NCBI GenBank assembly: GCA_028869325.1
Contig: JAGWST010000151.1
Location: 1-13,698, forward strand
Direction: 5' to 3'
Origin: a bacterium
Lineage (GTDB): Bacteria > Vulcanimicrobiota > Vulcanimicrobiia > Vulcanimicrobiales > SCRA01
Length of the DNA: 13,698 bases
The notes under the pieces were generated by a model. It did no database searches, had not been told where the DNA came from, and worked only from the letters and a program-made list of their open reading frames with translations. Below are positions 3 through 12,848 of the stretch, piece after piece (within the stretch, counting starts at the first letter, position 1; every line of letters starts with the position of its first letter). A program made the position numbers and the translations under genes.

Positions 3-410
3 CAGTCGTACCAGCGTGACCTCCAGGAGACCAAGGCGCTGGTCGTGCGCGGCCTGGAGCACGCCTACGCCGTCTGCGCGGCGTTCGAGCGCGCGCTGGG
101 CTACCTGCGCTTCGACCGCGAACGCTGCAACGCGCGCGCCGCCATCGGTTTCGCCGTCGCCACCGATCTGGCCGATGCGCTGGTGCGGAGCGGTCTCCCC
201 ACTCGTGCCGCGCACGAGCGCGTGGGACGTGTGGTGGCCCAGGCCGAGAGCGAGGGGCGTGAGCTCAACGCCGCCGACCTGCGGACACTGGGCGTCGAGG
301 CGCCGCTGGACGGGGCCTCCTCAGTCGCGGCAAAACGCACGCTCGGCTCTACCAACCCCGAGTACATCCGCACGGCCATCGCCGCGCTCAGAGAGGAACT
401 TCAGTCATGA
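3..410 (+). CDS. argH: Argininosuccinate lyase, C-terminal part (5' end outside window)
   Basis: This is the last 135 codons of an open frame that enters from the left edge. Argininosuccinate lyase splits argininosuccinate into arginine and fumarate, the last step of arginine synthesis, in the cytoplasm. The first visible residues ([11 protein letters not shown]) match the conserved stretch after the catalytic loop of the fumarase/aspartase superfamily. The rest looks like the family's helical C-terminal domain, with an [20 protein letters not shown] segment typical of ArgH. The catalytic Ser loop lies upstream and cannot be checked. Its TGA stop overlaps the argC ATG (ATGA, 407-410), so the two are translationally coupled. 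Assignment rests on motif recall and on the adjoining arginine genes. Confidence 0.9.
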
Positions 411-1372
411 CGCGCTTGCACATCGTCGGCGCCTCCGGGTATGCCGCGGGTGAAGTGATCCGTTTCGCGGTCAAGCATCCCCGGCTCGAGCTGGGTGCCC
501 TGGAGAGCGAGAGCGCCGCCGGGCGGCCGTTGGGCGAGATCTTCCCGGCGTTGCGCCGGGTCGATCGGACCTTCGATGCCCCGGGCGCCGTCGAGCGCTC
601 CTTGCAGCCGGGCGATGCGGTCATCTTCGGCTCCGGCAACGGCGTCGCGCTCTCGCGGGCGCCGCAGATGGTGGAGCGCGGGGCGAAGGTCATCGACCTC
701 TCCAGCGACTTCCGCCACGATCCGGCCGCCGTCTATGGTCTGCCCGAGCGCCATCGCAGCGAGCTCGCCGGCGCCTCGCTGGTGGCCAACCCCGGCTGCT
801 ATCCCACGGGCACGCTGTTGGCATTGGCGCCACTGGCGCCGTGGGCCGCGCAGATCAGGCAGCTCATCGTCGATGCGAAGAGCGGCATCTCCGGCGCGGG
901 GCGCACGCCCAAGACGGCCACGCTCTTCTGCGAGGTCGATGGCGACGTCGTGGCCTACGGCCTGGAGGGGCATCGTCACCACCGGGAGATGGTCGCCGAG
1001 CTGAAGGCGAGCGGCATCGAGCGCCCGTTGCTCTTCACGCCGCAGATGGTCCCGCTCAAGCGCGGCATGCTGGTGAGCGCCTATGCCGTCTTCGATGCGG
1101 CACCCTCGGAGGCCGAGGTGCTGGAGGCCTATCATGCGGCCTACCAGCGCGAACCGTTCGTGCACCTGGTGACGGTGGCGCCCAGCCTCGCCGGCGTGCT
1201 CGGCACCAACGACGCGGAGCTGCACGTCAGCGTGGTGGGCCCCACGGTGCGCGTCATCTGCGCCATCGACAACCTGGGCAAAGGCGCGGCGACGCAGGCG
1301 CTGCAGTCGCTGAACGTGATGCTCGGCTTCCCCGAAGAGGAGGGTCTGCATGCTCGCGCCCTCATCGCCTGA
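407..1372 (+). CDS. argC: N-acetyl-gamma-glutamyl-phosphate reductase
   Basis: This 321-residue enzyme reduces N-acetylglutamyl phosphate to the semialdehyde with NADPH, the third step of arginine synthesis. The N-terminal [12 protein letters not shown] (residues 8-19) is the dinucleotide-binding loop. [13 protein letters not shown] (128-140) carries the catalytic cysteine, Cys131. [11 protein letters not shown] and the HRHHREM segment are further family signatures. It is slightly shorter than the usual ~340-350 residues but has no visible break. The ATG overlaps the argH stop, and a GAGAGGA ribosome-binding sequence lies inside the end of argH. Its 3' end overlaps argJ by 23 bases. Confidence 0.96.
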
Positions 1373-2564
1373 CCGCCTGATCGCGCTGCGCGGCGGCCTG
1401 GGCGCGGTGCCCGGAATCAAGCTGACCGGCATCCACGCGGGCTTCAAGAAGCGCAAGCCGGATCTGGCGCTGATCGTGGCCGAGCGCGATTGCGTGGGCG
1501 CGGCTTGCATCACCACCAACGAAATCAAAGCGGCCCCCGTGTTGGTCAGCGGCGAGCATCTGGGCGCAGACGGTGAAGCGGTGCGCGCCATCGTCTGCAA
1601 CTCCGGTTGCGCGAACGCCTGCACGGGCGAGCGCGGCATGCACGATGCGCGAACGACCGCGCGCCAGGCGGCGACGCTGCTGGGATTGCGCCCAACGCAG
1701 GTGCTGGTTGCCTCCACCGGCGTGATCGGCGTGCCGCTGGCGATGGACCGCATGCAGAAGGGTTTGGAGCGCATCGTCGGTCAGCTTGGTGAGGGCAGCG
1801 AGGCCGCCTACGAGGCCGCGGAGGCGATCATGACCACCGATCACGTGCCCAAGCTCTCGGCGTACGCCTTCTACCACCAGGGCAAACGCTACGTGGTCGG
1901 CGGGATCGCCAAGGGCGCCGGCATGATCGCTCCCAACATGGCGACGATGCTGGCCTTCGCCGCGACCGACGCGCCGATGTCGAGGACGGCGCTGCAGCAG
2001 GCGCTCTCCGAGGCCGTCGTCGACACGTTCAATATGATCTCGGTCGACGGCGACATGAGCACCAACGACTCGATCTATGCGCTGGCGCCGCGCGGCGAGG
2101 GAGCGGCACCGGCCGGCTTCACCGCGGCGCTGCACGCCGTCTGCGAGGAGCTGGCGGTGGCGATGGTGCGCGATGGCGAGGGCGCCACCAAGACCATGAC
2201 GGTGACCGTGAGCGGCGCCAAGACGCGCGAACAGGCGCGCGGCATCTGCAAGGCGATCATCAACTCGAGCCTGGTGAAGTGCGCGCTCTACGGGGAGGAC
2301 CCCAATTGGGGGCGCATCATCGCCGCGGCCGGCAGCATCGGCGCCGGGGTCGTCGACGGCAGCTGGAGTCTGATGCTCAACGACCGGGTATGGGTCGAGC
2401 GTGGCGCCGTCGAGGCGCTGAGCGAGGCCGAGGCGCACGGTGAGCTGGAGGGGCAGGACGTGCGCGTGGTCCTCGATCTCGGCCAGGGTGACCAGCAGGC
2501 CGTGGGCTGGGGCTGCGATCTGACCACGCAGTACGTGCACATCAACGCGCACTACCGGACTTGA
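1350..2564 (+). CDS. argJ: Glutamate N-acetyltransferase / amino-acid acetyltransferase (ornithine acetyltransferase)
   Basis: This 404-residue protein moves the acetyl group from N-acetylornithine to glutamate, recycling acetyl in the cyclic arginine pathway. Members autocleave into alpha and beta chains at a conserved Ala-Thr bond. The cleavage motif [14 protein letters not shown] is at residues 188-201, so Thr199 should become the nucleophile and new N-terminus. STGVIG (122-127) is the oxyanion-hole motif and NDPNWGR-like GEDPNWGRI marks the C-terminal domain. The ATG is preceded by AGGAGGG about seven bases away, within argC. Whether it is bifunctional (also using acetyl-CoA) cannot be told from sequence. 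The next gene is argD, without argB between. Confidence 0.96.
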
Positions 2565-2599
2565 GCATAGCGGCGCAACCAGAGGAGCGGGAACGATCG

Positions 2600-3841
2600 G
2601 TGGATACACTCTCTACGGCAGCCCAGACCAGCCTTGGGGCCTCGAGCCTGGAGCAGGTGATCGAGCTCGAACGGCGCTACGTCGTCTCGACCTACCGCCG
2701 GCTCCCGGTGCTCTTCGTGCGCGGCGAGGGCTGCGAGCTGGTCGACGAGCAAGGGCGGCGCTACCTCGACTTCGTCGCCGGCATCGCGGTCTGCGCGCTC
2801 GGTCACGCCCATCCCGCCGTGACGGCGGCGATCGCCGCGCAGGCGGCGACGCTGGTCCACGTTAGCAACCTCTATCACTCGATTCCGCAGGCGCAACTGG
2901 CGGCGGAGCTGGTGCGCCGCTCGGGATTGGAGCGCGCCTTCTTCTGCAACAGCGGAACGGAGGCCAACGAGGCGGCCATCAAGCTCGCGCGCAAGCATGC
3001 CTACCGCAAGGGCGAGCCGCAGCGTACGACCATCATCACGATGGCCGGCGCCTTCCACGGACGGACCTTCGGCGCGCTCGCGGCGACCCCGAATCCCAAG
3101 TATCAGGAGGGATTCGCCCCGCTGCCCGGCGGCTTCAAGACGGTTCCCTTCGGCGATCTCGCCCAGGCGCGTGCCGCGATCGACGGGCAGACGGCCGCCG
3201 TTCTGGTGGAGCCCGTGCAGGGCGAGTCCGGAATCCATCCCGCCGATCCGGCTTACCTCGGCGCGCTGCGCGAGCTCTGCCACCAGCGCGGCGCTCTGCT
3301 CATCTTCGACGAGGTGCAGTGTGGCTTGGGACGCATCGGCACGCTCTTCGCCTTCCAGCACTACGGCGTGGTTCCCGACGCGGTGACGTTGGCCAAGGGC
3401 CTGGCCAACGGGCTGCCGATCGGGGCGCTGGTCGTCGGTAAGGCCGTCGAGGAGTCGCTGCAGCCCGGCGACCACGGCACCACGTTCGGCGGAAATCCCG
3501 TCGCCTGTGCCGCGGCCTTGGCGCATCTGGCGGTCTCCGCGCGCGACGACGTCCCGGCCAACGCCACGCGCGTCGGCGCCATCCTGCGCGGCGAGCTCGA
3601 GCGCCTTGCCGCCGCCTACCCCGCCGTTTTGGGCGAGGTGCGTGGCCTGGGCTTGATGCTGGGCGTCCAGGTGAAAGAGCCGCACACGGCTCGCGCCATC
3701 GTGGAGGCGGCGCTCGAGGAGCGCGTGGTCGTCAACGACGCCGGCGGGAACACGCTGCGTTTCGTGCCCCCGCTGATCCTCACGGGCGACCAGGCTCGCG
3801 AGGGCGTCGCCAGGCTCGAGCGCGCCGTCGCGCGCCTCTAA
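2600..3841 (+). CDS. argD: Acetylornithine aminotransferase
   Basis: This class-III PLP aminotransferase (413 residues from this start) converts N-acetylglutamate semialdehyde to N-acetylornithine. Visible motifs in order are FCNSGTEANEAAIKLAR (PLP phosphate site), FHGRTFGALAAT, VLVEPVQGESGI, LLIFDEVQCGLGR (the Asp binds the pyridine nitrogen), LAKGLANGLPIGA with the Schiff-base lysine encoded at 3395-3397, and TTFGGNPVACAAAL. Two starts are possible. TTG at 2561 overlaps the argJ stop (TTGA) but has no ribosome-binding site. GTG at 2600 has AGAGGAG about 12 bases upstream and is chosen here; family homology starts later than either. A close relative such as a GABA or succinylornithine aminotransferase is less likely given the operon. 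Confidence 0.94.
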   Translation: MDTLSTAAQTSLGASSLEQVIELERRYVVSTYRRLPVLFVRGEGCELVDEQGRRYLDFVAGIAVCALGHAHPAVTAAIAAQAATLVHVSNLYHSIPQAQLAAELVRRSGLERAFFCNSGTEANEAAIKLARKHAYRKGEPQRTTIITMAGAFHGRTFGALAATPNPKYQEGFAPLPGGFKTVPFGDLAQARAAIDGQTAAVLVEPVQGESGIHPADPAYLGALRELCHQRGALLIFDEVQCGLGRIGTLFAFQHYGVVPDAVTLAKGLANGLPIGALVVGKAVEESLQPGDHGTTFGGNPVACAAALAHLAVSARDDVPANATRVGAILRGELERLAAAYPAVLGEVRGLGLMLGVQVKEPHTARAIVEAALEERVVVNDAGGNTLRFVPPLILTGDQAREGVARLERAVARL

Positions 3842-3862: not shown

Positions 3863-4381
3863 TCAACCCATGAGGCGGCGGCGCGCCTGCGCGGCGGCAT
3901 CCAGCGCGCGATCGTGGATCTGCGCGTCGGTCAGCGTGCTCAAGGGGTGGACGATGGAGACGGGATCGAGGCCCTCCATGCCCAGCGCGGCGCGCTGCAT
4001 GTGCGCCTCATGGACGAAGGCCTCGGTCACGATCACGGCGGTCGGCAGCCCCAGCTCCTCGAGCGAGATGGCGTCGTGCATACAGCACGACGTGCACGAC
4101 CCTCAATCGCCGATGGCGGTTAGGGCCGCGTCGTTCTCCGCGGCGATGCGCGAGAGGAGCGCCGGATCGGCGACCTTCGAGAAGCTCTCCTTCTTGTAGT
4201 AGCGGACCTCGCCGATGCGATCCTCGCGCTGCAGCTCCGCAACGGTTGCGCGCAGCAGCTTGCCGGCATTCCACTTCGTGTTGTCGAGGACGCCGACGCG
4301 CACGCCGCTCAGGCCCCGCAGACGAGGTGCCAGCGGTTTGGGCTCGGTCTCGACCACACCGGTGGGGTCGTAGATGGTCAT
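3863..4381 (-). CDS. UGSC-family selenoprotein (in-frame TGA = selenocysteine 93)
   Basis: The reading frame from ATG 4381 to TGA 3865-3863 encodes 172 residues if TGA 4105-4103 is read as selenocysteine. The N-terminal part holds GVRVGVLDNTKWNAGKLL (residues 26-43). The centre is AIGD-U-GSCTSCC (89-100), the motif that names the UGSC family of selenoproteins or Cys homologues. The part after Sec (MHDAISLEELGLPTAVIVTE, 101-120) continues the same fold without a break. A SECIS-like hairpin follows the TGA. ATG 4381 has GGAGGAA just upstream and lies 19 bases after the stop of the preceding 368-residue gene; an upstream ATG at 4456 would overlap that gene and lacks this site. Sec93-x-x-Cys96-x-x-Cys99 suggests a redox-active site. 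The substrate is unknown. A nonsense mutation or sequencing error is possible but less likely. Confidence 0.88.
4072..4092 (-). promoter_or_regulatory. Candidate bacterial SECIS hairpin
   Basis: On the - strand, CGTCGTGC (4092-4085) pairs perfectly with GCACGACG (4079-4072) around the 5-base loop UGUAU (4084-4080). The loop begins 19 bases after the UGA and its second base is G, followed by U. Bacterial SECIS elements recognised by SelB lie within the coding sequence just after the UGA, with the apical loop roughly 16-37 bases downstream and a G in the first two loop positions, so this fits well. The element encodes residues of the selenoprotein at the same time. No folding energy was computed. 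Confidence 0.75.
4103..4105 (-). other. Selenocysteine UGA codon
   Basis: TGA in frame with strong coding sequence on both sides: AIGD before and GSCTSCC after. It sits exactly at the U of the UGSC motif. Standard gene callers would end the upstream fragment here and start a separate 72-codon ORF at ATG 4081. Confidence 0.87.
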
Positions 4382-4400: not shown

Positions 4401-5507
4401 TTAGAGCCGACAGGTACCGTCGACGCAGACGGGGCCGCTGCCGGGCGGCGTGCCATCGATGGCGCGCAGCACTGGAGCCGTCATGTGGCCCCAGCCTGGG
4501 ATGAAGGCGGAGAAGCGGCCCGCCTCGCCGCCGGCGCAGAAGAGATGAATGTCATCGGACGACGCCACGATCGGAATACGCGCCTGCGGCTCGCGCTTGT
4601 ACCAGCGCGGCAGATTGCGGTTGTAGACCTTGCCGTAGCGGTGGCCGAAGCTGATCTGCTGGAACGTGTTCCCGGCATTCATCCACAGGTAGTTGCGCAC
4701 GTCGTTGCGCGTCCAGCCGTGCGCGGCGATGGTCGCGGCGTGCTCGGGCCCGATGACCACCGCACACGAGCCGCCGGAGACGGCGTTGTTGTGCGCATAG
4801 GTGCTCATCGCGGAGACGATGCTCTCGAGAATCCCCTGCGGATCGTTGGCCACGTGATTGGTCACGCTGTGCGGGGGCTCGGCGGCGATGACGAAGACCG
4901 TGCTCTGCTCCGGCCCGTAGCCGCGATCGACGTGGTAAGGCGCCCAGGGGCTGGCCTCTTCGTTCTCGGCGATGCAGTAGGTGTACTTGCCGGGGTGGCC
5001 CAAGGTGCTCTTGTCCAGGTCGCCGGGCGTTCCGCCGCCGACGGTCAGCAGGACCAGTCGAATGGCGCGCCCGATGGTGGCGTTGGCGCGGTTGCCCGAG
5101 CCGAAGACGTTGCAGCCGGCGTTCATGCCGATCTCGTGGCGGATCGGGCCGTTGACGACCAGCAGCGGGGCGGCCATGTGCGTCGTCGCCTGCACCCCAT
5201 TGAGATTGAAATGCGTATCGCAGAGGGCCAATAGCGCGGCGCGCACCACGGGCGCGTACGCGGGTTTGCAGCCGGCCATTACGAGGTTGATGGCGAGCAC
5301 CTCGCGCGTGAGACTGCCCAGACGCGGCGGCACACGGCATTCCAGACGGCCGGGGTCTCCGCCCAGCGCCTCGACCATCGCGGCGACCTTTGCCGGGGTC
5401 GGCGGGACCACGGGCAAGCCGTCGGACCAGGGTTGCTCGAAGTAAGACTCGACGAGGTCTTCCGGCACGGCCTCGCCGGCGCGGGTGCGGTCTACGGTCT
5501 GGCTCAT
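4401..5507 (-). CDS. Conserved protein of unknown function, putative redox partner of the UGSC selenoprotein
   Basis: I do not recognise a named function. The 368-residue protein looks cytoplasmic, with no signal peptide and no clear membrane segment. Conserved-looking blocks are WSDGLPVVPPTPAKV (residues 27-41), LAINLVMAGCKPAYAPVV (71-88), VVNGPIRHEIGMNAGCNVFG (117-136), GDLDKSTLGHPGKYTYCIAENE (162-183) and HNNAVSGGSCAVVIG (239-253). It has nine cysteines. The chain ends in PVCVDGTCRL, a C-terminal Cys361-x4-Cys366 pair like the flexible redox tails of some disulfide reductases. It starts three bases after livF stops and ends 19 bases before the UGSC gene, so the two are probably co-expressed. 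A role with the selenoprotein is inferred from adjacency and cysteine content only. Confidence 0.75.
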   Translation of the reverse strand: MSQTVDRTRAGEAVPEDLVESYFEQPWSDGLPVVPPTPAKVAAMVEALGGDPGRLECRVPPRLGSLTREVLAINLVMAGCKPAYAPVVRAALLALCDTHFNLNGVQATTHMAAPLLVVNGPIRHEIGMNAGCNVFGSGNRANATIGRAIRLVLLTVGGGTPGDLDKSTLGHPGKYTYCIAENEEASPWAPYHVDRGYGPEQSTVFVIAAEPPHSVTNHVANDPQGILESIVSAMSTYAHNNAVSGGSCAVVIGPEHAATIAAHGWTRNDVRNYLWMNAGNTFQQISFGHRYGKVYNRNLPRWYKREPQARIPIVASSDDIHLFCAGGEAGRFSAFIPGWGHMTAPVLRAIDGTPPGSGPVCVDGTCRL

Positions 5508-5510
5508 CGG

Positions 5511-6220
<710 letters not shown>

Positions 6221-6224
<4 letters not shown>

Positions 6225-6964
6225 GAGGCGCTCGCCTCCTCGAGAGAGGTGCCGAAGTAGGCTTCGCCGACGCGCGGATCGGCGGCGATCTCGGCCGGCG
6301 TGCCGTCGGCGATGGTCTTCCCGAAGTCGAGAACCACGATGCGGTGGGAGATTTTCATCACGACGCGCATCACGTGCTCGACGCCGCCGATCGCGGCGAT
6401 TCCGCGCTCGCGCAACTGTTCGATGAAGACCGCCATGGCGTCGATCTCCGTTGGCGTCAGGCCGGCCATCACCTCGTCCAGGAGCAGCAGCTTGGGGCGC
6501 AACGCCAGTGCGCGCGCCGCCTCCAAGCGCTTGCGCTGGGTGATGGTGAGGTCGGAGGCGGGGCGATCGGCGTACGGCGCCAGGCCCGTCATCTCCAGGA
6601 CCTCGCGCGCGGCGGCGCGCGCGCGCTCCAGCGTGCGCTCGTGGGTCAGCGCCCCGACGGCGACGTTGTCCAACACGCTCAGGCGCACGAAGGGGCGGGC
6701 GATCTGATAGGTGCGCGCGATGCCCGCGGCGGCGATTCGCTGCGGCGACCAGCCGACGATCGAGCGATCCATGAAGCGCACGTCGCCCGAGGTGGGGCGC
6801 AACACACCGCTGACGATGTTGAAGAGCGTCGTCTTGCCGGCACCGTTCGGCCCGATGATGCTGACGATCTCGCCTTCGCGAATCTCGAGGCTCACCCCGT
6901 CCAATGCGCGCACGCCGCCGAAGGTACGCGTCACGTTGTCCACCACCAGCAACGGGGCGCTCAT
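6221..6964 (-). CDS. livG: Branched-chain amino acid-type ABC transporter, ATP-binding protein LivG
   Basis: The second ATPase of the importer, 247 residues from ATG 6964. Walker A GPNGAGKTT is at residues 38-46 and Walker B LLLLDEVMAGL at 159-169, with a switch histidine in GGVEHVM. The signature region reads LTITQRKRLEAARAL instead of the LSxGQ form of its partner. The DEVMAGLTPTE block together with this signature marks a known LivG subgroup. The longer open frame upstream of 6964 is a shadow of livM. The start overlaps the livM stop (ATGA) and the stop overlaps the livF start. Confidence 0.93.
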
Positions 6965-7902
6965 GTGCGCGCCTCCGCGGGCTTGGCTCGCGCGCGCCGG
7001 CGAGAGAGCGCCGCCGCGCATGCGGGGGCGATGCCCCGCGGAAGAAAGACCAAGAGCGCCACCACCAAGCCTCCGAAGATCATGAGGAAAGCCTGCGGAT
7101 ACTGCGCCGCCAAGGCCTCGGAGATCTGCGAGATGAGGACGCCGCCGATGAGCGGCCCCCACACCGTGCCGATCCCGCCCAAGATGGTCATGGCCACCGC
7201 CTGCAGATCGATGCTGGTCGAGAAGACGGAGACCGGATTGACGTAGGTGAGATACCAGGCGTAGCCGCCGCCTAGCAGGCCCGGGATCGCCGCGCTGATG
7301 ATGAAGGCGTACACCTTTTGGGTGGTGACGTGTACCCCCAGCGTGGCGGCGACCTGCTCGTCCTCGCGCAGCGCCTGCAGGCGCAGTCCGAAGGCGCTGT
7401 GGTCGATCAGCCACGTCCCGGCGAAGGCCAGAACGGCGATCGCGAGCGTCCAGTAGTAGACGGAGAGGGCGTTGGAGCCCGGCGGAAGGAAGAGCCCCTG
7501 GCCGCCTCCGGTGATGCCCATCGAGTTCGCCGCCACTTGCAGCGTTCGCGCGAGGCCCAGCATGCCCAGAGCGAAGAACGGCCCGCGCAGGCGCAGCATC
7601 AAATAGCCCAGCGGCACGGCAAACGCGGCCGAGACCACGCCGCCCAGCAGGGCCCCGATCTCCCATGGCAACGGCGTCTTGGTGACGACGATCGCCGTCA
7701 CGTAGGCGCCAAGCCCAAAGAACGTGACCTGCCCGAACGAGAAGTACCCGGCGTAGCCGGAGATCACGTTCCAACCGTAGGCGAGCGCCACGTAGAGGAG
7801 CGTGATGTAGAAGAGCGAGCGATAGTAGCCGTTGGCCATCGGCGGGATGACGATCAGCAGCGCGACGACGACGCAGAAGACGAGAATCCCGATGCGTCTC
7901 AC
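6961..7902 (-). CDS. livM: Branched-chain amino acid-type ABC transporter permease LivM
   Basis: A 313-residue membrane permease starting at GTG 7902, whose last bases overlap the livH stop (GTGA). The first hydrophobic segment, RIGILVFCVVVALLIVIPP, lies right at the N-terminus. Family signatures are GWNVISGYAGYFSFGQVTFF, LMLRLRGPFFALGMLG, ALREDEQVAATLGV (the cytoplasmic coupling loop that touches the ATPase) and AMTILGGIGTVWGPLIGG. About eight or more hydrophobic segments are visible, followed by a basic C-terminal tail. The open frame extends far upstream in shadow of livH, but homology and the coupled GTG fix the start here. Confidence 0.93.
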   Translation of the reverse strand: MRRIGILVFCVVVALLIVIPPMANGYYRSLFYITLLYVALAYGWNVISGYAGYFSFGQVTFFGLGAYVTAIVVTKTPLPWEIGALLGGVVSAAFAVPLGYLMLRLRGPFFALGMLGLARTLQVAANSMGITGGGQGLFLPPGSNALSVYYWTLAIAVLAFAGTWLIDHSAFGLRLQALREDEQVAATLGVHVTTQKVYAFIISAAIPGLLGGGYAWYLTYVNPVSVFSTSIDLQAVAMTILGGIGTVWGPLIGGVLISQISEALAAQYPQAFLMIFGGLVVALLVFLPRGIAPACAAALSRRRARAKPAEART

Positions 7903-8774
7903 GCGGCCCTCCGTCCCAGCAGTCCCACCGGGCGCACCAGCAAGATGAGGATGAAGAGCACGAACGGCGCCGCTTGGGCGGCCTGCGCGCTCACGTAGTA
8001 GCCGGTGAACGAGATGGCCAGGCCCACGATCGCCGCGCCCAGCAGCGTCCCCGCGTAGTTGCCGAGTCCTCCCAGTGCGATGACGGCGAAGGCGCTGAGC
8101 GTGAAGTCGTCGCCCGTCTGCGGGTTGTAGGAGAAGATGGTGCTCAAGAGACATCCGCAGGCCGCTGCCAGCCCGCTGCCGATCGCGAAGCTCACGGTGC
8201 GCACGTTCTCGACGTCGATCCCGCAGGCCATCGCCCCCTGGAGGCTCTGGCTGGTCGCGCGAATCGAGCGTCCGACGGCCGTGTAGCGCAACACCACGGC
8301 GAGCAGCAGCGCGATGATGGCCGCCGTGACGAAGGCGATCAAGCGCGCCTGCGCGATGGAGAACGGTCCGATGCTCCACGAACCGGTGAGATACGGAACC
8401 GAGTGGAAGTTGCCGGTGAAGATGGCAAAGCCCAACCCCAGCATGAAGTAGGAGACGCCGAAGGTGAGCAAGAGCGAGGTCGTCTCCGCGGAGGCGAGAT
8501 CCTCGGGAAGCCGCCGCAGGAAGGCGCGCTGCACGAGGGCGCCCGCGATCAGCGCCCCCACGAAGGCGACCGGGAGCACGGCAAACGGGCTGACGTGCCC
8601 CCAGTCGAAGAGCGCCGCGCAGATCAGCGCCGCCATGATCACGAACTGGCCGTGGGCGAGATTGACGATGCGCATGACCCCGAAGATCACATTCAATCCC
8701 AGGGCCGAGAGCGCATAGATTCCGCCCACCAGGAGGCCGTCGATGGTCAGTTGGCCGATGAGCGCTGGATGCAT
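7899..8774 (-). CDS. livH: Branched-chain amino acid-type ABC transporter permease LivH
   Basis: The partner permease, 291 residues, from ATG 8774. GGIYALSALGLNVIFGVMRI followed by VNLAHGQF is the hallmark N-terminus of LivH. SIRATSQSLQGAMACGIDV is the coupling loop, and AVIALGGLGNYAGTLLGA is the conserved C-terminal permease block. It forms a heterodimeric channel with LivM. It begins 12 bases after the stop of the binding-protein gene, with only a weak AAGGCGAG ribosome-binding sequence. Confidence 0.94.
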   Translation of the reverse strand: MHPALIGQLTIDGLLVGGIYALSALGLNVIFGVMRIVNLAHGQFVIMAALICAALFDWGHVSPFAVLPVAFVGALIAGALVQRAFLRRLPEDLASAETTSLLLTFGVSYFMLGLGFAIFTGNFHSVPYLTGSWSIGPFSIAQARLIAFVTAAIIALLLAVVLRYTAVGRSIRATSQSLQGAMACGIDVENVRTVSFAIGSGLAAACGCLLSTIFSYNPQTGDDFTLSAFAVIALGGLGNYAGTLLGAAIVGLAISFTGYYVSAQAAQAAPFVLFILILLVRPVGLLGRRAA

Positions 8775-8786
8775 CTCGCCTTGGCG

Positions 8787-9983
8787 TTAGTGGGTCGACC
8801 AGGAGGGGAAGGGCACCATGGCCGTCATCTGTGCCTCGTCCTTCGGATAGATGACGAACTGCTTGCCGTTCTTCCACTGCAGAACCATCGCGGCGTAGCC
8901 GACCTGCGAGCCGTTCTTGTCGACCTTATAGGTGCCCATGATGGTGCGCATGGTCATGACGGAGAGCTCGTCGCGGAGCTTGTCCTGATCCAGCGAGCCG
9001 ACCTTGGTGATCGCCGCGCCGAGGACCTCGAGCCCCCCAAAGGCCGCCGCCGCGTGGTAATCCGGAGGCGTGCCGAAGTCGGCCGTAAAGCCCTTGACGA
9101 ACTCCGCGTTCCCCGCCGTCTTGAGCTCGGCGCTCCAGTTGGCGGTCCCCATCACGCCGTCGGCGTCCTTGCCGTTCTGCTGGCCGAAGTTGGGCTCCGT
9201 CGGACCGACACCTTCGTAGAGAATCTTCGGCGCGAAGTTCGCCTGCTTCAAGGCCCGCAAGAGACCGATCGAGTCGGGCAGGTAACAGGCCGAGAGCACG
9301 ACGTCAGGGTTGGCCTCCTTGATCTTCTGCGCGATCGAGGTGTAGTCGGAGGCATTGTGGGGGTAGAGCTGGTCGAAGACGATCGTCATCCCCATCTCCT
9401 TGGCGTAGCCGGCGGCGCCGGCGACGACGGAACGCGGGAAGAGCGAGTCCTCGCCGGAGACGGCGATCGTCTTGTAGCCGTGCTCCTTGGCGATCTCCAT
9501 CGGGCCCTTGATATAGAGCGGTGACTGTTGGATGCCTTGGAAGATATAGGTCAGCCCACGCGAGTATATCTTTGGCGAGGATCCGCCGGGACCCATCATG
9601 ACCATCTTGTGTTGCTGCGAGACGTTCGCGACGGAGGCGGTGACCTCGCTCGAATACGGGCCCACGATCAAGTCCACATGGTCCTGGTCGATGAGCCGTT
9701 GGTAGAGCCGCACGGCGTTGGCGGCATCGCTGGCGTCGTCGTAGGTCTTGAGCTCGAGTTGACGCCCGAGCAATCCGCCCTTGGCGTTCTGCTGCTTGAC
9801 CCAGTACTGGTAGCCTCGCAGCTGAAACTTCGCGCTGTTGGCGTAGGCTCCAGTCTCCGATATCGTGCCACCGATGACGATGGGCCTACCGGCGGCACGT
9901 GCCCGCGCGAACGAGCTGCCCACCACGAGCGCAGCTCCCGCCACGGCGGTGGAACCGATCATCTGGCGACGTGTCTGCTTCAT
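8787..9983 (-). CDS. ABC transporter substrate-binding protein, branched-chain amino acid type
   Basis: This 398-residue periplasmic binding protein (LivK-like, type I fold) captures the ligand for LivHMGF. The N-terminus TRRQMIGSTAVAGAALVVGS is a twin-arginine-like signal, with likely cleavage after ARA or ARAA near residue 31. There is no lipobox cysteine. The mature part starts PIVIGGTISETGAYAN, followed by GGLLGRQLELKTYDD and DLIVGPYSSEVTASVA, which are standard ligand-pocket strands. A strong AGAGGAGGTG site four bases upstream of the ATG predicts the highest translation rate in the operon, as expected for a binding protein. The ligand cannot be read from sequence; the mutase and selenoprotein genes around it suggest something other than ordinary leucine. 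Confidence 0.93.
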   Translation of the reverse strand: MKQTRRQMIGSTAVAGAALVVGSSFARARAAGRPIVIGGTISETGAYANSAKFQLRGYQYWVKQQNAKGGLLGRQLELKTYDDASDAANAVRLYQRLIDQDHVDLIVGPYSSEVTASVANVSQQHKMVMMGPGGSSPKIYSRGLTYIFQGIQQSPLYIKGPMEIAKEHGYKTIAVSGEDSLFPRSVVAGAAGYAKEMGMTIVFDQLYPHNASDYTSIAQKIKEANPDVVLSACYLPDSIGLLRALKQANFAPKILYEGVGPTEPNFGQQNGKDADGVMGTANWSAELKTAGNAEFVKGFTADFGTPPDYHAAAAFGGLEVLGAAITKVGSLDQDKLRDELSVMTMRTIMGTYKVDKNGSQVGYAAMVLQWKNGKQFVIYPKDEAQMTAMVPFPSWSTH

Positions 9984-9996
9984 TTGGCACCTCCTC

Positions 9997-10728
9997 TTAA
10001 GTAGATAAGTGCTGTGGAATGAGGTCGAAGGCGCCGGCTCTTCCGAGGGAGCCGGAGCGCTCTAGTTGCTCCAAGAGCAACGCGCAGCCGACGCGCACGT
10101 GCTCCTCGGCCCAGTTGCGCGCCTCTTGCGCGGAGCCCGACTCCAGCGCCCCGATCAGCGCGCGGTGATGCTGCATGGCAAGATGCGACCAACCTGGGAC
10201 CATCGCATGGAAGGCGTGCGGAACGCTGTACGACACTTGACGTAGTATCCGCGCGAGCCGCGGCGCCCCCGCCTCGAGGTTGATGAGCCGATGGAACTTC
10301 CAATTGAGGTCGTCGATCGACTCCTTCGAGCGTCCCGCCGCGACGCGCTCCATTCTGCGCTGGAGTCGTCTGCAGGCCTCCAACAGCGGCGGGAGGGCCC
10401 GCGCGGCGGCACGCGCGGCAAGCTCCCCCGAGAGAAAGGCGTGCAGGAGATAGACGTCGCGGACATCCTCGCGCGTCATCGGAATCACGCGCACGCCGCG
10501 CGCCTTGGCGATCTCGACCAAACCCTCACGCTCCAACTCCATGAGTGCCGAGCGCACGGGGGTGATGCTGGTACCGAGTGCGCGCGCAAGATCGGCCATG
10601 CGCATCCAGCGAGTGGAGTCGATGCGCCCCGCAACGATGAGATCGCGCAGGTAGGCCAGCGAGCGTTGCGAGAGCGTGGCGTCGTGCGTGGCGTCGTGCG
10701 TGGCGGGGGGGAGCACGACGTGCCTCAT
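9997..10728 (-). CDS. GntR-family transcriptional regulator with FCD ligand domain
   Basis: A 243-residue regulator. Residues about 18-85 form the GntR winged helix ([19 protein letters not shown] is the recognition-helix region). Residues about 88-220 form an all-helical FCD domain with candidate metal or ligand residues Asn142/His146 (NWKFH), His188 and His210. FCD regulators usually bind carboxylates or amino-acid-like metabolites. It lies between the mutase subunits and the binding protein, with an ATGA overlap upstream and 13 bases before the next ATG, so it is probably autoregulated with the operon. The N-terminus contains a duplicated THDA encoded by a 12-bp tandem repeat. No ribosome-binding site is obvious; translation is probably coupled. 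Confidence 0.9.
10681..10704. repeat. 12-bp tandem repeat, two perfect copies
   Basis: GTCGTGCGTGGC occurs twice in a row (10681-10692 and 10693-10704), with a partial copy (GCGTGGC) just before at 10674-10680. It lies in the 5' end of the GntR gene and encodes the duplicated residues T-H-D-A. It looks like a slippage duplication in an unconstrained N-terminal extension. Confidence 0.85.
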
Positions 10729-11120
10729 CGCGCCGCGCGCCCGCGATCGTAACGCAGAAAGGCGCCGACGACCTCACCCATCGGCGAGCCCGTGGGGAAG
10801 ACCTCGGCGGCGCCAAGCGCCTTGAGCCGCTCCACGTCGCGCGGTGGTATCGCCCCGCCTACCAGCACGGGCACCTCCGCCGCGCCGCGCTCCGAGAGGC
10901 GCTCGATCAGTTTCTTCGTGAGGCTCAGGTGCGCGCCGGAGAGAATGCTCAATCCGACCGCGTCGGCATCCTCCTGTACGGCGGCCTCGGCGATCTGCTC
11001 CGGCGTCCGGCGCAGGCCCGTATAGATCACCTCCGCCCCCGCATCGGCCAGCGCGCGAGCGATGATTTTCGCTCCACGATCGTGCCCGTCGAGTCCGGGT
11101 TTGGCGATCACGATGCGCAT
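10725..11120 (-). CDS. Acyl-CoA mutase small subunit, B12-binding (methylmalonyl-CoA mutase C-terminal domain type)
   Basis: A 131-residue stand-alone cobalamin-binding subunit. DGHDRG (residues 11-16) is the DxHxxG motif whose His13 replaces dimethylbenzimidazole as the lower cobalt ligand. GLSILSGAH carries the SxL motif (Ser54, Leu56) and VLVGGAIPP the GG motif (84-85). It binds adenosylcobalamin and pairs with the large subunit encoded just upstream, whose TGA shares one base with this ATG. Separate large and small subunits are found in archaeal-type methylmalonyl-CoA mutases, isobutyryl-CoA mutase and 2-hydroxyisobutyryl-CoA mutase. The stop overlaps the regulator's ATG. Confidence 0.93.
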
Positions 11121-12715
11121 CAGATCACGATGGGCTCGCGGAACTCACCGAATGCCGCTCGCAGCCGATCGCAGATTTCGCCGAGCGTGCAATACGACTC
11201 CACCGCCTCGATCAACGGCGGCATCAGGTTCTCCGTGCCCTCGGCTGCCGCCCGCAGGTGCGCGAGGGCGGCGCCGGCGCGGGCGGGATCGCGTCTGGCG
11301 CGTACAGCCTGCAGGCGCGCGATCTGCGTGCGGACGGAAGAGTCGTCGAGCTCGAAGAGCTCCAGCCGATGCGCCGTACCGTTCGTGCGAAAACGATTGA
11401 CGCCGACGAGGACGTCGTCGCCGGCCTCGATCCGGCGTTGTTTGCGGTAGGCCTCGTCGGCGATGAGCTGCTGGATATAGCCGCCCTCCACGCACGCCAC
11501 CATCCCGCCGCGCTCGGCGATCTCCGCCATGATGCCCAGCACGTGACGCTCCGTGGCATCGGTCAGCGACTCCACGTAGTAGGATCCGCCCAGCGGATCG
11601 GCGACCTCGGCCGCGCCGGTCTCATAGGCGAGGATCTGCTGCGTGCGCAGGGCCAGCTCGGCGCTCTCTTGGGTCGGGATGGCGAACGGCTCGTCCCAGG
11701 CAGCGGTGAAGATGGAGCTAGCCCCGCCGAAGACCGAGGCCATCGCCTCGAAGGCCACGCGAATGGCGTTGTTCATCGGCTGCTCGGCCTGCAGCGTGCT
11801 GCCGCCGCAGACCAAGCCGAAGCGAAACGCCCACGAGCGCGGATCGTGCGCGCCGAAGCGCTCGCGCATCAGCCGCGCCCAGATACGCCGCGCCGCACGG
11901 TACTTTGCGACCTCCTCGAAGAAGTCGCTGTGCGTGTAGAAGAAGAAGCTGATGTTGCCGGCGAAGGCGTCGATCTCCATGCCGCGCTCCAAGCAGCGCT
12001 GCACGTAGGTGATGCCGTCGGCGAGCGTGAAGGCCAGCTCCTGCACGGCGGTGGCGCCGGCATCCCGGAAGTGCGCGCCGGCGACGCTGATCGCGTTGAA
12101 GCGCGGCAGCTCGCGCGAGCAGTAGTCGATGGTGTCGACGATCAGCCGCAGCGAGGGCTCGACGGGATAGATCCACGTTCCACGCGAGACGTACTCTTTG
12201 AGGATGTCGTTCTGAATGGTGCCGGATATCTTGCGCAGATCGGCGCCTTGGCGCTTTGCGACGGCCACGTACATCGCCAGCAGCACCGCCGCCGTGGCAT
12301 TGATGGTGAACGAGGTGGTGATGCGCTCCAGCGCGATGCCGGCGAAGAGGCGCTGCATGTCGTCGAGCGTGTCGATGGCCACGCCGACGCGTCCGACCTC
12401 CTCCTCGGCGCGCGGGTCGTCGGAGTCGTAGCCCAACTGCGTCGGCAGATCGAGCGCGACGCTGAGGCCGGTCTGCCCTTGATCGAGGAGATAGCGATAG
12501 CGCGCGTTCGACTCGTCGGCGGTGCCGAAGCCGGAGTACTGGCGGAAGGTCCAGAGCTTGCCGCGGTAGCCGTCGGCGCGCACGCCGCGCGTATACGGGA
12601 AGCAGCCCGGATCGGCGACGCCGGAGGCGTACGAAGAGCCGTCCCAGTCAGAAGGCCCGTACGCAGGCTTCCGGGGGATTCCCGATGGTGTGGTGGACTC
12701 CCGTTTCTCGCTCAA
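11120..12715 (-). CDS. Adenosylcobalamin-dependent acyl-CoA mutase, large subunit (methylmalonyl-CoA mutase-like, divergent)
   Basis: This is the catalytic TIM-barrel subunit, 531 residues from TTG 12715, the start chosen because GGGGAGG lies 13 bases upstream. GTG 12745 (541 residues) is an alternative without such a site. Recognisable blocks are [68 protein letters not shown] and [13 protein letters not shown]. Compared by memory with Propionibacterium methylmalonyl-CoA mutase, Tyr89, Thr195, Gln197, Arg207, His244 and Ser285 have counterparts (Y60, T166, Q168, R178, H215, S256). Tyr243 is Ala214, Arg283 is Asn254 and His328 is Gly300. The mutase chemistry is likely retained and Arg207 suggests a second carboxylate, but the pocket is enlarged, so the substrate may differ from methylmalonyl-CoA. 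No MeaB-type chaperone gene is in the window. Confidence 0.88.
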
Positions 12716-12848
12716 CGAAACGTACGCACCTCCCCATGCCGCCACACCACGACACGCGGTACCATAGCCCGACAGGCTCCTGTCAATCGACCGGGAACTG
12801 ACCTATCCTGACGGTAGCATAGGAGATATTTCTAGACAAGGGGTTCGC
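12716..12848. promoter_or_regulatory. Divergent intergenic region with candidate control elements
   Basis: This short gap separates the leftward mutase-transporter-selenoprotein unit from the rightward crotonase gene, so promoters for both should lie here. On the - strand TTGACA (12786-12781) is a good -35 candidate, but the nearest -10-like TATGGT is only 14 bases on, so the promoter is uncertain. For the + strand, TAGCAT (12815-12820) and GATATT (12825-12830) are weak -10 candidates with no matching -35. A loose inverted repeat, CCTAT-12-ATAGG, spans 12802-12823. AAGGGG (12838-12843) is the ribosome-binding site for the TTG at 12849. Confidence 0.5.
12771..12784. promoter_or_regulatory. Perfect 14-bp dyad, candidate operator
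   Basis: GACAGG-CT-CCTGTC is a perfect 6-2-6 inverted repeat in the divergent promoter gap. It overlaps four bases of the - strand TTGACA hexamer. Its location and symmetry fit a dimeric repressor site, with the GntR protein of the operon as the obvious candidate. Its base sequence is not a match to a GntR consensus I can name. Confidence 0.4.

Follow-up and report, generated by a model that had tools for sequence, protein, structure and literature searches.

The window analyzed here, the 13,698-nucleotide contig JAGWST010000151.1 of a member of the Vulcanimicrobiota (assembly GCA_028869325.1), carries on its minus strand, at positions 3863 to 4381, a gene of the UGSC family whose reading frame contains a TGA that is almost certainly read as selenocysteine (Sec). 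Directly upstream stands a gene for a 368-residue protein, hereafter the partner, that accompanies UGSC genes nearly everywhere. We lean toward a model, held with only modest confidence, in which UGSC and the partner form a two-subunit, thioredoxin-type reductase acting in the catabolism of organic acids or acyl coenzyme A (acyl-CoA) compounds.

Translation of the minus strand from 4381 to 3863 with TGA as Sec gives 172 residues with Sec at position 93 (U93, in the motif IGDUGSC), and a second TGA terminates the gene. The sole interruption of the 172-codon frame is the TGA at 4105 to 4103. On its two sides lie an upstream frame ending in LTAIGD, with 117 residues counted from the ATG at 4456 or 92 from the ATG at 4381, and a 72-residue downstream frame (4081 to 3863) beginning with MHDAISLEE. 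A preliminary description of this DNA had given the same coordinates and pieces, which translation and the list of open reading frames confirmed, and had left the minus strand unstated; its proposal that the TGA joins the pieces into a 172-residue UGSC protein also held, and the joined protein exceeds both curated family cut-offs (NF041046, 146 bits against 125; PF24696, 188 bits against 25, E = 1.9e-55). The halves match adjacent, nonoverlapping positions of NF041046 (2 to 68, E = 1.9e-11, and 77 to 143, E = 4.6e-17) and adjacent positions of PF24696 (1 to 92 and 101 to 171), so that the two-piece gene is more than chance. The match is full length, with the same motif in its Sec form, and the protein is no different from the family named "UGSC-containing protein" in the Global Ocean Sampling (GOS) survey; judged from its sequence, the gene is a new but otherwise ordinary member of a known family with Pfam and NCBIfam models. 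The preliminary description was right that the family is known, but it missed these models, as well as the hairpin, the partner gene, and the relationship to PrdB/GrdB considered below.

The codon at the Sec site was compared across 81 loci, namely, the window and the best 80 of 151 relatives from a species-level genome collection. It is TGA in 54 loci, TGC in 23, and TGT in 4, in line with the earlier expectation of U or C at position 93, and the second Cys of the UxxC motif is kept in all 108 rows of the UGSC alignment. Within the window's phylum, UGSC was found in 18 of 149 genomes, with one TGA inside 26 of the 29 UGSC matches. The Sec/Cys label requires two changes on the UGSC tree, which has long branches, weak support for 46 of its 105 inner branches, and 2 of 108 rows left unlabelled for want of a readable motif. 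Three genomes of the same genus retain the TGA, and most differences among these genes, before as well as after it, are at third codon positions (window versus locus L149, 15, 8, and 32 differences at positions 1, 2, and 3 before the TGA and 9, 8, and 26 after it), which suggests that selection acts on the protein encoded beyond the TGA. One might instead take the TGA for a genuine stop, a sequencing error, or the mark of a pseudogene, on the ground that the window itself offers nothing beyond a single contig sequence; such an explanation is very improbable against a TGA shared by 54 of 81 loci and three same-genus genomes, codon-like divergence on both sides, a hairpin tied to the Sec forms, and the Sec machinery of the genome. 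Contigs of metagenome-assembled genomes labelled Klebsiella pneumoniae (L062) and Bordetella parapertussis (L084) also carry TGA-containing UGSC genes; these labels look doubtful.

Beginning 10 nucleotides after the UGA is a hairpin resembling a selenocysteine insertion sequence (SECIS; positions 4072 to 4092, minus strand), with an 8-bp stem (CGUCGUGC/GCACGACG) and the loop UGUAU. At this fixed place, at least seven of the eight pairs form in all 54 Sec loci versus 3 of the 27 Cys loci, and the mean in the Sec loci is 7.65 pairs, versus 5.66 for a null of random synonymous codons encoding the same peptides (largest group mean, 6.28). When loci from the phylum were added, 77 of 79 distinct Sec genes reached seven pairs; only L161, with 5 pairs, and L162, with 3, fell below this threshold. 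Diverged copies have compensated stems, such as GUCCUGC/GCGGGAC (L138) and GUCGUGG/CCACGAC (L160). Tested against 500 shuffles, three of five covariation measures (paired cells, double-change cells, and the covariation score) beat them all, and two did not rise above them: "pairs with a change on both sides" was as high in 287 shuffles, and "further pair types" was as high in 475. Half of the pairs are invariant. Since folding energies barely separate the groups (mean of -19.6 for Sec and -17.4 for Cys), the argument is carried by position, loop, and pair count. The residues encoded over the stem are T-S-C, then C or S, mostly M/L/T, and H (52 of 54) in Sec genes and C/T-S-A/G/S, C, V/L/I, and R/N in Cys genes, a pattern that fits an RNA constraint confined to Sec-using genes, although the Cys forms differ in lineage as well. 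Rfam gave no match anywhere in the window at the gathering threshold. The hairpin looked for in a bacterial selenoprotein gene is present as far as can be read from the DNA.

The machinery for Sec insertion is encoded in the window's genome (2.53 Mb in 539 contigs, 82% complete). The best matches for selA, selB, selC, and selD all exceed their family cut-offs, selA and selB share one contig, and the tRNA-Sec (selC) scores 71.7 bits against a gathering score of 47; the preliminary description had named the absence of these genes as grounds for abandoning its claim. It is the combination of a UGSC-family frame, a SECIS-type hairpin directly behind the codon, and the Sec machinery that leads us to regard the recoding of UGA93 as almost certain. 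A genome-wide reassignment of TGA, for example to Trp, would likewise leave the frame open, and the listed sequence of one metagenome protein, P0002, has Trp in place of U93 (IGDWGSC), probably because a gene caller rendered TGA as Trp. This account is even less probable than a stop or an error: the UGSC gene itself terminates at TGA, the Sec machinery is present, and all 27 homologous loci without TGA carry Cys codons. Other in-frame TGA codons were seen in the genome. The selD gene (L017, contig C78 of genome G000) has its own, so that SelD is apparently itself a selenoprotein, and the minus strand of contig C193 (L100) encodes a PrdB-like protein (GGUPLC), named from its PF07355 match and a same-genus copy, followed directly by what we take to be a Prx-like protein (TPVUTS), each with an in-frame TGA.

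The window gene is a further example of a Sec gene likely to be split in routine annotation. The preliminary description had predicted such splits, and two public plasmid records contain them: in Paracoccus pFER4 (L196, 5399 to 5968), two small hypothetical proteins are annotated across one Sec-UGSC gene, and in Acidovorax p2-T1 (L197, 5380 to 5895), a small hypothetical protein covers the front part with none over the rear, according to a gene table that is incomplete by its own description.

The product of the partner gene (positions 4401 to 5507, minus strand) matches no Pfam or NCBIfam model, and no Pfam match better than an E value of 0.03 was obtained with 40 relatives; a PDB sequence search returned nothing below an E value of 0.74. 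The protein has at least 7,961 homologs at an E value of 0.001 or less, counted among 7,998 candidates scored. In 79 of the 81 loci (the window and 78 of the 80 fetched), UGSC is preceded on its own strand by a relative of the partner; in the two exceptions, L046 and L057, the contig begins just 254 and 487 bases from UGSC. The gap between the two genes has a median of 56.5 nucleotides and is at most 150 nucleotides in 62 of 78 loci; five gaps exceed 500 nucleotides, the largest being 1,588. All 20 stretches fetched from the phylum have the partner near UGSC; they include L143 (contig C11, 8296 to 9549), a diverged second pair in the window's genome, in which the contig end truncates UGSC. The same-genus genome G032 contains four UGSC matches. 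Among plasmid records with the partner, of which 24 were found, a UGSC-like domain is adjacent or fused to it in all 8 opened, including two from archaea; a fusion is seen in a Vibrio europaeus protein (L198, 5398 to 7083), encoded close to genes that carry the annotations aconitase X and DUF126. In the 88 loci with one of each protein, pairwise distances of UGSC and partner are correlated (r = 0.906, versus at most 0.396 in 999 permutations), to which shared organismal ancestry contributes. Partners of the main clade end in a CX4C tail, which in the window is CVDGTC (residues 361 to 366; positions 4410 to 4427, minus strand): 72 of 87 match the pattern, and inspection by eye shows C-x-x-G-[TA]-C in the other 15 tails.

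Profile comparisons point to a relationship between UGSC and the Sec-containing subunits of D-proline reductase (PrdB) and glycine reductase (GrdB), described by TIGR04483 and PF07355. The UGSC profile (108 rows) aligns with a profile drawn from PF07355 matches (25 rows, 23 distinct) over 81 columns, with Sec/Cys on Sec/Cys (hhalign E = 7.9e-6, score 41, probability 84%). Control scores were at most 22.7 for 60 column shuffles, 16.4 for the reversed profile, at most 24.9 for 29 neighbor clusters, of which at least cluster 9 seems to be a spurious antisense frame, and 13.7 for Asp/Glu racemases. Four Bacillota sequences from prdB loci (TAGUGTCHR...), three annotated as PrdB and the fourth from an unannotated record, also align with UGSC Sec on Sec (E = 8.5e-6), and 60 shuffles of the joint PrdB set scored at most 23.6. 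Separately, a PrdB-like selenoprotein of the same genus matches NF041046 (E = 0.00098) over a stretch covering its Sec and TIGR04483 with an E value of 2.4e-54, its 184 bits being under the model cut-off of 300. The window's UGSC protein gave no TIGR04483 match at E values up to 0.001. The statistics support UGSC as a remote homolog of PrdB/GrdB, not a member of that family. The likenesses include a UxxC Sec at the matching place, a shared stretch that reaches the E..GIPT..I segment, an adjoining gene for a second subunit, and thioredoxin reductase in some UGSC clusters, as in glycine reductase operons. The differences are that the UGSC partner is neither PrdA nor PrdD, that hmmscan does not detect UGSC as PF07355, and that UGSC is linked to genes for acyl-CoA and organic-acid metabolism; many UGSC hosts, moreover, are presumably aerobes. 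No kinship was seen between the partner itself and GrdB-like proteins (E = 0.39) or PrdB (E = 0.2).

Two other views of the family bear on this relationship. The first, in print as a likely thioredoxin-like fold, regards UGSC as a thioredoxin-like thiol/selenol oxidoreductase or antioxidant protein; its UxxC motif is formally thioredoxin-like, and thioredoxin reductase is encoded nearby in 12 of 109 loci. We consider this unlikely, as neither Pfam nor NCBIfam gives UGSC a thioredoxin family match, the PDB sequence searches yielded no useful relative (no E value below 0.34; 1.1 for the single sequence and 0.34 for the profile), the similarity to the PrdB/GrdB profile is well above controls, and a near-constant partner with CoA-transferase, acyl-CoA dehydrogenase, and transporter neighbors better suits a substrate-specific catabolic enzyme. 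The second would make the pair a nonredox enzyme, such as a lyase, isomerase, or racemase, whose Sec/Cys would serve only as a nucleophile or base, as LarA-type racemase (15 of 81) and CoA-transferase (34 of 81) neighbors and one match to the Asp/Glu racemase family PF01177 (E = 0.00057, 1 of 63 UGSC proteins) might indicate. It seems to us no likelier than the first: thioredoxin reductase in some neighborhoods, the invariant second Cys, and the CX4C tail of the partner point to redox chemistry, and kinship with the Asp/Glu racemases was rejected when the profile was compared with 28 of their relatives (E = 0.25). A second protein search with the UGSC profile returned UGSC proteins only, among the best 120 of 4,038.

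The genomic setting is compatible with a catabolic role for the pair. Upstream of the partner, the minus strand of the window encodes LivF-like (5511 to 6224, in the same operon; best match, below the model cut-off) and LivG-like (6221 to 6979; PF00005 and PF12399) ABC ATPases, LivM-like (6961 to 7857) and LivH-like (7899 to 8774) permeases (both PF02653), a substrate-binding protein of the branched-chain-amino-acid type (8787 to 9983; best match, below the model cut-off), a GntR-type regulator (9997 to 10728; best match TIGR03338, below cut-off), and the B12-binding (10725 to 11120; TIGR00640) and large (11120 to 12745; TIGR00641) subunits of an acyl-CoA mutase, both over their cut-offs; the starts of the LivG- and LivM-like genes were chosen by us. 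In the window and the three same-genus genomes, the pair ends a gene run of B12-dependent acyl-CoA mutase, GntR-type regulator, and Liv-type ABC transporter; only the window and L152 yielded the small subunit of the mutase, and an acyl-CoA dehydrogenase gene lies behind UGSC in the three relatives. Across the 81 loci, neighbors counted as clusters of open frames of at least 90 residues, each named from one representative, include CaiB-type CoA-transferase (34 loci), TctC-type receptors (19), acyl-CoA dehydrogenase (17), and LarA (15), and selB and selA are near UGSC in 10 and 7 loci, respectively. The 12 loci with thioredoxin reductase (at least 48% identity) include two that supplied the queries and several close relatives, and two weaker matches of about 32% were left uncounted; in Arthrobacter, the order of consecutive genes is trxB-trxA-partner-UGSC. 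On the plus strand of the window, argC-, argJ-, and argD-like genes (407 to 3841), named from their Pfam domains, converge on the UGSC operon.

Under the two-subunit model, UGSC would be the catalytic Sec subunit and the partner the second subunit of one enzyme. UGSC might act as PrdB does in D-proline reductase, with the selenolate attacking either the substrate or a bond that the partner has labilized. The resulting selenylsulfide would then be reduced by the partner's tail and a thioredoxin system, the possible source of electrons, with the CX4C tail of main-clade partners exchanging electrons with the Sec/Cys pair of UGSC. In the window's organism, the substrate could be an organic acid or amide imported by the Liv-type ABC transporter, and the product would be handed to acyl-CoA chemistry, via the B12-dependent mutase here and via acyl-CoA dehydrogenase in the same-genus operons. 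The reaction may be the reductive cleavage of a C-N, C-S, or C-O bond; this is the least certain step.

Several observations weigh against this model. The CX4C pattern occurs in none of the 13 diverged partners, so the tail cannot be essential everywhere. Gene order varies, with UGSC first in the diverged pairs L157, L160, L161, and L162 and in two haloarchaeal, the Paracoccus, and the Acidovorax plasmid records, and the Vibrio fusion has Met at the Sec/Cys position. As the partner resembles neither PrdA (E = 0.86) nor PrdD (E = 0.71), the pyruvoyl half of proline reductase is not reproduced; a search for PF09338 in 20 genomes gave no match, but control searches were equally silent. Homology to PrdB/GrdB reaches an hhalign probability of 84% at best, and hmmscan of 63 UGSC proteins listed no PF07355 match at E values up to 10, with filters that drop most matches above 0.1. 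All 12 loci with thioredoxin reductase are Cys forms, trxA was detected in 1 of 109 loci, and the window yielded no gene for thioredoxin or its reductase. Because the neighbors of UGSC vary widely, the substrate is not fixed.

UGSC ranks fifth by number among the selenoprotein families tabulated in the GOS survey, with 255 sequences (PMC2398784), and a later marine survey assigns 8.2% of selenoprotein genes to it (PMC9402790). The literature on UGSC selenoproteins, in the portions covered by our search, gives no established function. The GOS survey of 2008 depicts UGSC fused to a conserved "Unknown_1" domain (PMC2398784, Fig. S1), much as the Vibrio record fuses a UGSC-like domain to the partner, and Unknown_1 may be the partner, which is a guess. 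Those same portions of the literature mention neither the partner as a neighboring gene nor the CX4C tail nor kinship with PrdB; the pairing of UGSC with the partner and their codivergence, the tail, and the PrdB/GrdB link are, to that extent and provisionally, new.

Taken more broadly, and more tentatively than the model itself, the pair could represent a previously unrecognized class of thioredoxin-linked, two-subunit selenoenzymes that combines a half derived from PrdB/GrdB with a half from a new family, bearing a CX4C tail in the main clade. The class would be spread across Acidobacteria, Proteobacteria, Actinobacteria, and, as Cys forms, haloarchaea; its paralogous pairs may be tuned to different organic acids. 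With its partner defined, its likely superfamily one of known chemistry, and a candidate electron source at hand, a family listed under "function unknown" becomes approachable by experiment.
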